NCBI GenBank assembly: GCA_020251025.1
Contig: JADCDI010000025.1
Coordinates: 1-63,788 of the forward strand
Source of the DNA: Rhodobacter sp.
Lineage (GTDB): Bacteria > Pseudomonadota > Alphaproteobacteria > Rhodobacterales > Rhodobacteraceae
Direction of reading: 5' to 3'
Length of the DNA stretch: 63,788 bases
In this document: piece by piece, positions 36,939-38,677 of the stretch
Layout of the letters: each line of letters starts with the position of its first letter
How positions within the stretch are numbered: position 1 is the stretch's first letter
Notes under the pieces: model-generated
Told to the model about the DNA's origin: nothing
What the model saw: the letters and a program-made list of their open reading frames with translations, nothing else
The model's database searches: none
Program-made: the position numbers and the translations under genes

Positions 36939-37595
36939 ATGCGCAGACTTGTGAATGGCAGACGTCGGACTGTGGTTGCCTTTGGCGCGATGGCGCTGCT
37001 GGTCGGGGCGTGTTCGGGTTCAGGCGAATCCAGGGACAATTTCGTCATTCGGCCGATCCCGTCCTTCGCGGCAACCAATCAAGTCAGCCAATCGCTGTTC
37101 CAGAAGCAGACAGGTCTTGAAAAGACGCAATTGGCAAGGCTTCCTGTCAGCGGAAAAGCGACCTACCGGGGGGCTGCCGCCTACGTGACAAGTAGGAAAG
37201 AACTTGTCGACAAGAAGTACCCTGAATATGAACAGATAATCATTGGTAACCCAGAGTACGTTTCGGAGGTTAGATTGGTGGCGGACTTTGCCAACAAATC
37301 GGTTACGGGAAATTTAGACGCTTTCCGTGATTCGGCAAACCAAGGCTATCGGATAGATATTAAATTGGACGGCGGCACAATAGGCACGAGCGATTTCGGC
37401 AATGATGCGGTCTTCGGCGGCACGCTTGAGGGAAAAAATATAGTGGGGGGGGAAACTCTTAATTTCACCGGTGATATTGCGGGTCAGTTCCTTGGCGGAA
37501 ACGGCAGAATGATACTTGGGTCTGTCGGCTTTAACGATGGGTTCACTGGTAAGGGCAGTCCAATAGTCGGGGTGTTCACGGCAGAACAGCCGTAA
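36939..37595 (+). CDS. Predicted Slam-dependent surface lipoprotein, TbpB-like barrel
   Basis: 218-residue lipoprotein. Signal peptide with basic start and lipobox VGA-Cys25, then a Gly/Ser linker. The body resembles the small beta-barrel lobe of TbpB/HpuA-type surface lipoproteins: LPVSGKATYRG opening, RLVADFANKSVTGNL strand pair, and a C-terminal TGDIAGQFLGGNG ... GVFTAEQ ending. Family members bind host or environmental ligands such as metal carriers or haem, but the ligand here is unknown. Start ATG 36939 has an AGGAG site. G+C is about 44% over 37201-37380 against about 65% in a neighbouring core-gene segment counted by hand, so it is likely acquired or fast-evolving. The barrel gene follows after 17 nt. 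Confidence 0.65.
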   Translation: MRRLVNGRRRTVVAFGAMALLVGACSGSGESRDNFVIRPIPSFAATNQVSQSLFQKQTGLEKTQLARLPVSGKATYRGAAAYVTSRKELVDKKYPEYEQIIIGNPEYVSEVRLVADFANKSVTGNLDAFRDSANQGYRIDIKLDGGTIGTSDFGNDAVFGGTLEGKNIVGGETLNFTGDIAGQFLGGNGRMILGSVGFNDGFTGKGSPIVGVFTAEQP

Positions 37596-37612
37596 AGCTG
37601 ATCACGGATAGC

Positions 37613-38677
37613 ATGAAGGTCATGCACCTTGCCTGGCTTTTTTGCGCCATCTTTGTTGTCTTCTGTTCTGCGGGGCCGTCGATTGCCCAGACGACAGGAA
37701 ACTTTGCGCGGGACTGGCAGGGGTCATTCTTTTCCGTTTCGCCGCGACTGGTGTTCTTTACCCTCATTCAACGGGCGGTGCCCGGAACCGAAGGCGCGGT
37801 GGCGGCTTTGGCACAGGGCTTTGGGTTTCTGCACCAGAAAGGCCAGGGCCTTCAGCGCGCCTGGAACGTCACAAGCATTCAGCCGGTCCTGACCTACAGC
37901 CCCAATATCAATGGCGGGCTTGCCGGGGAAACCTTCACCATCGGCGGGCTTGTCTTCAAGATCGATCCCGAATACCGCGCCGTTGCGGGGCCCGTTGTCG
38001 GCGGCGAGCTTTCACGGTCCATCGGGTGGAGCATCGGCACCGGACAGACCGTGTCGGTTGCCGGAAACGCCTCCATCGTCTATTCCCCGGATCATGACAT
38101 CAGCAGAACCAAGGCGAACGGACAGGCCTGTTTCCGATCTTACCTGCAGGAGTGGCGGTTCCTCGATCTTTGCGGCGGCGCATCCTATGAAAGGACCGAT
38201 CTGAGCGAGGCTGACAGTTCTTTCGTCAGCGCGAACTTTGCCCGGCTTTTCCCGGCGCGCAACGGAACCGGGCTGGCCAATGCCGCGATCAACCGCGAAT
38301 TCCAGCAGACCTACCAGAAGACATCCCTTTCGGCCGGCGTCGAGCGCTACTTTGACGGGCGGGGCGTCGTGACGGCCCGCGTCACCCTGGGCGAAGAGAT
38401 CAAGGGCGAGAACATCCTGCTGTATGGCGGCTATCTGTCTTACGGGCAGCTTGTGCTTGGGGTGGGAACCAATATCGGCCTGTCCTATGAACGCGAAGGC
38501 GGCGACGTGTTTTTTGGACAGGACCGGAAGGACCATGTCATGACGCTGGACCTGACCGGCCAGATCAATCCCAGACTCAGCGCCACCTTTTCGGTTGAAA
38601 ACCGCCAGTCCAGCATCAGCCTGTTTGAAGGCGTGACCTTCAGGCTGGATCTGAACGTTCTCAGCCTGCAGTTCTGA
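37613..38677 (+). CDS. Slam-like outer-membrane barrel (DUF560-type), no TPR domain
   Basis: 354 residues. Signal peptide residues 1-25 (SIA-Q), about 60 residues of linker, then alternating beta strands to a C-terminal Phe, the mark of outer-membrane barrels. The segment LTYSPNINGG near residue 100 resembles the conserved start of the Slam (surface lipoprotein assembly modifier) barrel, and the ending SSISLFEGVTFRLDL...LSLQF resembles the last strands. Known Slams carry an N-terminal TPR domain, absent here. Co-transcription with a lipoprotein gene supports the role of exporting that lipoprotein to the cell surface. Alternative: an unrelated porin-like barrel. Confidence 0.6.
   Translation: MKVMHLAWLFCAIFVVFCSAGPSIAQTTGNFARDWQGSFFSVSPRLVFFTLIQRAVPGTEGAVAALAQGFGFLHQKGQGLQRAWNVTSIQPVLTYSPNINGGLAGETFTIGGLVFKIDPEYRAVAGPVVGGELSRSIGWSIGTGQTVSVAGNASIVYSPDHDISRTKANGQACFRSYLQEWRFLDLCGGASYERTDLSEADSSFVSANFARLFPARNGTGLANAAINREFQQTYQKTSLSAGVERYFDGRGVVTARVTLGEEIKGENILLYGGYLSYGQLVLGVGTNIGLSYEREGGDVFFGQDRKDHVMTLDLTGQINPRLSATFSVENRQSSISLFEGVTFRLDLNVLSLQF

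Follow-up and report, generated by a model that had tools for sequence, protein, structure and literature searches.

The main finding of this work is a pair of adjacent genes that probably constitutes a minimal Slam (type XI secretion) unit, in which a branch of Slam proteins devoid of the TPR domain is associated with its own small TbpB-like cargo. The pair lies in a window of 63,788 nucleotides, the whole stretch of DNA analysed here, and encodes the lipoprotein P0001 and the barrel protein P0002 (Table 1). Homology of the barrel to Slam, homology of the lipoprotein to TbpB-like proteins, absence of the TPR domain, conserved pairing of the two genes and a distribution that, within the genomes sampled, is limited to one bacterial family were all found by computation. 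A check of the sequence recovered both open reading frames described in the first-pass annotation, on the same strand and 17 nt apart. P0001 has 218 residues with MRRLVNGRRRTVVAFGAMALLVGAC, Cys25 following the lipobox as proposed, and its stop codon occupies 37593-37595. P0002 likewise contains the expected LTYSPNINGG (residues 93-102) and SSISLFEG (residues 333-340) segments and a C-terminal Phe, and its N-terminus reads as a Sec-type signal sequence. Read from their ORFs, the upstream neighbour of the pair is a CinA-like gene and the downstream neighbour, on the opposite strand, a RatA-like gene; no ORF between 32000 and 44000 reads as a TonB-dependent receptor, in agreement with the earlier claim that such a receptor is not encoded nearby.

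Table 1. Features of the P0001-P0002 gene pair, in positions of the window.
Feature	Position	Strand	Evidence
TbpB-like lipoprotein P0001, presumed cargo, 218 aa	36939..37595	+	PF01298 at 1.3e-8, 35.9 bits, residues 68-217; NF041636 20 bits
P0001 signal peptide and lipobox	36939..37013	+	Sequence; Cys25 codon at 37011-37013
P0001 short linker, residues 26-67	37014..37139	+	Sequence; PF01298 begins at residue 68; no recognised handle/effector domain
P0001 TbpB-like barrel, residues 68-217	37140..37589	+	PF01298; low-confidence AF2 model; Foldseek matches
Intergenic gap P0001-P0002, 17 nt	37596..37612	+	Sequence
TPR-less Slam-like outer-membrane barrel P0002, 354 aa	37613..38677	+	hhalign, A1 against A3 and P0002 alone
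P0002 short N-terminal stretch, residues 27-88, where Slam has its TPR domain	37691..37876	+	hhalign; residue counts
P0002 NINGG motif, residues 98-102, common to Slams as N[IV]N	37904..37918	+	Alignments
P0002 Cys173 (38129-38131) and Cys187 (38171-38173)	38129..38173	+	Invariant in the short family

The proposal that P0002 is an outer-membrane barrel resembling the membrane domain of Slam was borne out by profile homology extending over the whole barrel. Taken alone, P0002 matched no Pfam or NCBIfam family, even at E<=10. The comparison was made between A1, a profile of 16 short barrels (P0002 and its relatives), and A3, an alignment of 19 full-length Slams drawn from 30 returned PF04575 loci of the window's bacterial family rather than from neisserial proteins. 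When aligned by hhalign, A1 matched A3 at 99.2% (E 1.2e-19), with A1 positions 95-352 falling on Slam positions 159-433 of 436, a score that is possibly flattered since most A3 rows were picked by a script from N.N and C-terminal motifs and the sample was thus not blind. P0002 alone reached 96.7% (E 4.5e-10) against A3, and three jackknife runs, each omitting a third of the A1 rows, gave 99.0-99.2%. The controls were low, with one exception: reversed A3 scored 3.2%, none of five column shuffles exceeded 0.3%, and five block shuffles gave 0.8, 2.5, 89.2 (E 2.2e-6), 2.7 and 2.8%. Two further results are independent of the A1-A3 comparison. In 198 genomes of the family, 12 of the 14 weak matches of A1 fall in ORFs that were also found by PF04575, the remaining two (G015:C8 and G065:C6) being caught by the A3 profile; and, of the 15 short barrels absent from both alignments, A3 recovered 14 and missed L148, with scores of 12-65 bits (E<=1e-3, against a small database). 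The Pfam model itself behaved differently: none of the 31 short barrels matched PF04575 at E<=1, as against all 19 Slams of A3, which had been fetched by that model. PF04575 (SlipAM) was found in 66 of the 198 family genomes, 58 of them over the cut-off, and had no match in the window's genome. The suggested comparison with Slam (PF04575) therefore holds as homology to full-length Slams by hhalign, and fails as a match to PF04575 itself.

Among known systems, the barrel is homologous over its full length to the outer-membrane proteins of Slam/type XI secretion (PF04575 SlipAM, DUF560; neisserial Slam1/Slam2, NilB, HrpB), with which it shares the N[IV]N start motif, a similar C-terminal motif and, often, a neighbouring lipoprotein with a TbpB-like barrel. 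Unlike them, the short barrels have no TPR domain and no PF04575 match, carry two invariant Cys, and have a barrel region of 265-279 residues, shorter than the 290-318 of the full-length Slams placed in the tree described below. In the first alignment, of 16 barrels, N100, G102 and the two Cys are invariant, and Cys173 and Cys187, 14 positions apart, remain so in both alignments holding the 31 short barrels; a disulphide between them in P0002 is possible. As to a 14-stranded barrel like that of Slam, the AF2 model of P0002 (three close sequences) had a pLDDT of 27. Single-sequence matches of P0002 to sialidase in the PDB, at E 0.02, look like chance.

The first-pass annotation had also raised the prospect of a match to an unrelated porin family, and in profile comparison none arose. 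Weak Porin_4 matches do occur in 5 of the 31 members (best E 7.3e-5; the one match whose score is known reached 22.7, below the cut-off of 27), as would suit an ordinary porin-like barrel that happens to stand next to an unrelated lipoprotein. We regard this reading as very improbable: P0002 itself has no Porin_4 match, the profile comparison with 16 Porin_4 proteins gave 4.9% as compared to 99.2% for Slam, and the barrel is paired with a lipoprotein in 27 of 31 loci, so that both profile and pairing results already contradict it.

The description of P0002 as resembling the membrane domain of Slam is supported as regards the barrel; the first-pass annotation had not stressed that the N-terminal TPR domain is absent. 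Slam positions 1-158 have no counterpart in A1, which has about 60 residues there instead of the TPR domain. Counting the signal peptide, 58-110 residues precede the NxN motif in A1 as compared to 130-184 in A3, where the value of 58 belongs to L022, truncated by a contig end, and some start codons were chosen by script. At E<=1, TPR families gave a single match among the 31 short barrels (TPR_4 at E 0.085), in comparison with many TPR matches in the A3 Slams, including TPR_19 in 11 of 19. Against PDB sequences, A1 found nothing at E<=1 and A3 found 244 matches at E<=0.01, mostly TPR proteins among the 60 listed. A TPR partner split off as a separate protein was sought with the TPR_Slam model PF24575, which had no match in the window's genome; at E<=0.001 it matched in 10 of the 28 short-barrel genomes, one match being over the cut-off and lying inside a full-length Slam ORF of G086. 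Among 14 control genomes it likewise gave matches in 8, all of them under the cut-off.

In a tree of 60 barrels, from which L158, L043, L169 and L172 were dropped as missed by the cutting pattern, all 30 short forms stood on one side of a branch with support of 100/100. Because the tree is unrooted, loss of the TPR domain is deduced from the fact that full-length Slams elsewhere possess it. Extracts of a 2017 survey (PMC5449769) state that all of its 832 Slams had both domains and none DUF560 alone, so the TPR domain may be needed. For NilB, extracts of another study (PMC8406197) report that deletion of the whole N-terminal domain ameliorates the defects of smaller deletions, which lends slight published support to a dispensable TPR domain. 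Apparently there is a second TPR-less case, separate from the short-barrel branch: L119 (G067:C36, 2772-3827, + strand) is a frame of 352 aa in which a signal peptide directly precedes a PF04575-positive barrel (A3 positions 150-436). Upstream of it, on the other strand, lies a gene that reads like the thymidylate synthase ThyX, as in published marine cluster 3 loci. Another short PF04575 frame, G156:C38, was discarded as a TPR-less case, being truncated by a contig end.

Concerning the lipoprotein, the TbpB-like barrel proposed for P0001 is corroborated by the match to Pfam TbpB_B_D (PF01298), which exceeds the cut-off of 26 bits; an AF2 model of low confidence (pLDDT 46) has eight strands between residues 73 and 216. 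Absence of an eight-stranded TbpB-like barrel, which would have spoken against the pair, was not what this low-confidence model indicated. When the same model was submitted to Foldseek, the 18 best PDB matches were entries of TbpB, NHBA, fHbp, HphA and HpuA with TM of 0.35-0.44, one of them, 2lfu, being titled merely as a N. meningitidis vaccine antigen; the 19th match was a photosystem II protein. The NCBIfam model NF041636 (slam_lipo) stayed under its cut-off of 80 bits (Table 1). P0001 resembles TbpB, fHbp, NHBA and the NF041636 lipoproteins in having a lipobox and a C-terminal TbpB-like barrel, and differs from TbpB, fHbp and NHBA in being a single barrel that follows Cys25 after a linker of 42 residues, with no N-terminal handle or effector domain recognised by Pfam or from the sequence.

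The expected co-occurrence of the two genes was found across the window's bacterial family, where the lipoprotein and the Slam-like barrel form a conserved pair. In the 27 paired loci, some 350 nt at most separate the lipoprotein gene from the barrel (3.5 kb were searched on each side, L021 by eye); in 23 of them the lipoprotein gene immediately precedes the barrel gene on the same strand, and the two often overlap. Two sets of partners were aligned, A2 with 11 lipoproteins and A7 with 16 from new loci. The A2 profile accounts for 24 partners, namely its own 11 rows and, independently, those at 13 of 15 new loci. The partner at L021, missed by the script, is 46% identical to that of L147, and a Cereibacter pair with the same N-termini scores 118 bits with A2; the partners at L156 and L159 were assigned by lipobox and position alone. 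L019, L026 and L029 showed no visible TbpB-like lipoprotein within the 3.5 kb searched, and L022 is cut by the contig end. A2 and A7, both chosen as neighbours, align as one family at 99.9%. At E<=1, PF01298 matched 7 of the 11 A2 partners and 2 of the 16 A7 partners, and NF041636 matched 5 of the 11 (best 1.5e-10). Searched against the PDB, the A2 profile matched fHbp at 3.9e-4. PF01298 (E<=0.001) occurs within ~1.5 kb at 4 of 14 short-barrel places and, judging from coordinates, at 10 of 74 full-length ones. Occurrence as neighbours in other species, the TbpB_B_D match over the cut-off and the invariant barrel residues indicate that the adjacency of P0001 and P0002 is beyond chance.

As to distribution, 198 genomes of the window's bacterial family were searched with P0002, and 13 of them contained relatives, at 14 places in all; on the same genomes A1 recovered these 14 places at >=311.9 bits, in addition to the 14 weak matches (<30 bits). 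In 390 genomes of the order, A1 gave 23 strong matches (195-440 bits), and a broken copy was apparent in G286 (G286:C27:777-1680), which matches in three separate frames. Altogether 31 short barrels were examined, including the window and close copies from two Rhodobacter MAGs (L001 and L002; barrels 95 and 91% identical). When 385 genomes were drawn from the class (their family make-up was listed in part), the sole strong match of A1 was the window's own. Seven weak matches there, six of them from other families, lay in frames of 455-578 aa and were all caught by the full-length Slam profile A3 as well. Since this draw yielded no other strong match, the short form looks restricted to the window's bacterial family within the samples searched.

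The comparison between the window and L001 revealed a contrast between cargo and barrel. At the DNA level, identity is 92-95% across the flanking genes and the barrel, as opposed to 51-54% in the mature lipoprotein; a further comparison put identity at 49% for the cargo and 95% for the barrel. Between the two lipoprotein genes (window 36939-37595, L001 5306-5980) dS amounts to 1.39 and between the barrel genes to 0.17, with dN of 0.48 and 0.026, respectively; dN/dS is 0.35 (window-L001) and 0.22 (window-L002) for the lipoprotein and 0.15 and 0.18 for the barrel. The divergence is abrupt on the 3' side, where the stretch before the barrel gene shows no difference, and less so on the 5' side, with 83% identity in the signal peptide and 74% in the upstream intergenic stretch. 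Selection on single residues was considered as its cause and set aside, since dS itself is raised and allele exchange fits better. The raised synonymous change suggests that the cargo gene was replaced through recombination, and exchange between close relatives therefore looks like the source of the divergence, as one might expect of a surface protein. These values also bear on the possibility that the two proteins form a stable complex like LptD/E, with the lipoprotein as a plug or assembly factor on the periplasmic side that is not exported. The tight pairing and the fact that the window's lipoprotein has no recognised effector domain are consistent with such a complex. We nevertheless consider it quite unlikely, given that a cargo so much more divergent than its barrel would be odd for a plug needing fit and that the nearest solved folds of P0001, judged from the low-confidence model, are surface or secreted proteins.

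We hypothesize that P0001, in accordance with established lipoprotein biology, would leave the cytoplasm through Sec, receive its lipid at Cys25 and be transported to the outer membrane, where P0002 would serve as the translocon, a Slam-type barrel whose periplasmic TPR domain may have been lost or never present. Judging from homology and gene pairing, P0002 would recognise the C-terminal barrel of P0001 and thread the lipoprotein through the membrane, and P0001 would end lipid-anchored on the cell surface. As P0001 comprises the linker and the targeting barrel only, its ligand, if any, would bind the barrel loops. Translocation, surface location and any ligand of P0001 are, in this respect, what we infer from sequence.

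A different role should be weighed for one branch of the family, whose pairs stand beside cellulose-synthase genes (L024, L025, L147, L150, L151, L152, L157, L158 and L167; a GGDEF protein is present in 7 of the 9). Of the 28 short-barrel genomes, 14 contain BcsB: nine carry it no more than 6.6 kb from the barrel, one carries it 13 kb away and four have it on another contig. The other 14, the window's own among them, gave no BcsB match, and a match to BcsC (PF05420) was absent from all 28. Among the 198 genomes of the family, the frequency of BcsB was 4 of 13 where a short barrel is present and 8 of 185 elsewhere (Fisher p 0.004), or 5 of 13 (p 0.0005) if G107 is counted, where BcsB was matched in one search and not in the other. 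The neighbours in this branch include bcsN-like, bcsA-like, GH8, TPR-protein and GGDEF genes, of which bcsN and bcsA were named by reading, the bcsN-like protein having no Pfam match, and BcsB of L167 was taken from the annotation. At L158, bcsB, GH8, the TPR protein, the lipoprotein and the barrel all run in one direction. These data, the presence of a Wza-like gene beside the barrel of L019, and the statement, in extracts of PMC8406197, that one PF04575 cluster formerly consisted of PgaA homologues would suit an outer-membrane polysaccharide exporter, with the lipoprotein as accessory or plug, which in the cellulose branch replaces BcsC together with a separate TPR protein. The short barrels resemble BcsC in being outer-membrane barrels near bcs genes, in one branch, and differ from it in showing no profile similarity, the hhalign score against three BcsC barrels being 0.2%. 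Besides, half of the genomes have no BcsB match and four more carry it on another contig, and the partner resembles Slam cargo, all of which makes the exporter reading unlikely. From the BcsB neighbourhood and the absence of BcsC, a polysaccharide role is possible for the cellulose-linked branch, bearing in mind that the window's genome has no BcsB match. As a tentative possibility, the barrel-only Slam may be the smallest known Slam-type translocon, one branch of which was built into cellulose loci lacking BcsC, where it would either display a cellulose-tethering lipoprotein or form the missing outer-membrane exit. The short barrel of L019 (7626-8981, + strand), which has no TbpB-like lipoprotein, adjoins a Wza-like export protein (Poly_export, SLBB) and also, by reading, a Wzc-like gene.

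Returning to the proposed minimal Slam unit, among the titles and abstracts listed for Slam, DUF560 and T11SS, none mentions a barrel-only Slam. The marine cluster 3 T11SS loci of Rhodobacteraceae/Roseobacteraceae are similar in that they come from related bacteria and have a Slam-like barrel and, in some cases, an eight-stranded cargo. According to extracts of their description (PMC12282271), this set was gathered as DUF560/T11SS proteins, its neighbours include ThyX, glyoxalase and DUF1194 genes, and TbpBBD is present at 8 of 145 loci and reported as rare. Since the short barrels have no PF04575 match, a survey based on PF04575 probably would have missed them. The short barrels are candidate exporters for TbpB-like lipoproteins in bacteria where, according to the same extracts, such cargo is rarely found near cluster 3 T11SS proteins. 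A TPR-less branch in which nearly every barrel stands beside its own lipoprotein amounts to a natural experiment on which part of Slam moves the cargo, the pair may offer a two-gene unit for surface display, and one branch links a Slam-like unit with cellulose synthesis.

The pair is also found on plasmids, and its presence on plasmid pC of the laboratory strain Cereibacter sphaeroides 2.4.1 (WP_011331357.1 and WP_011331356.1) makes a direct test feasible. Fifteen plasmid records match P0002 (10 from Cereibacter, two from Alloyangia and one each from Gemmobacter, Paracoccus and Ruegeria), a set that overlaps the genome sample, L165 being the same DNA as L160 and L162 sharing N-termini with L021. 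In all six records examined, the upstream neighbour has a lipobox and scores 30.5-124 bits with A2, and the barrel scores 141-407 bits with A1. By Pfam, the partner of Paracoccus liaowanqingii has a TbpB_B_D match of 25 bits (cut-off 26) and that of C. sphaeroides 2.4.1 an HphA_C match at E 0.015; the Alloyangia partner matched only RRF at 0.025, which looks like chance, and those of C. sphaeroides EBL0706 and Ruegeria had no Pfam match. In the public records of these six plasmids (L162, 6874-8846, and L164, 3895-5855, among them), the barrel is named 'hypothetical protein' or 'lipocalin'. The partner is called 'viral aspartic protease' in four, while the partners scanned by Pfam contain no protease domain; it is a 'hypothetical protein' in Ruegeria and a 'transferrin-binding protein-like solute binding protein' in Paracoccus liaowanqingii.
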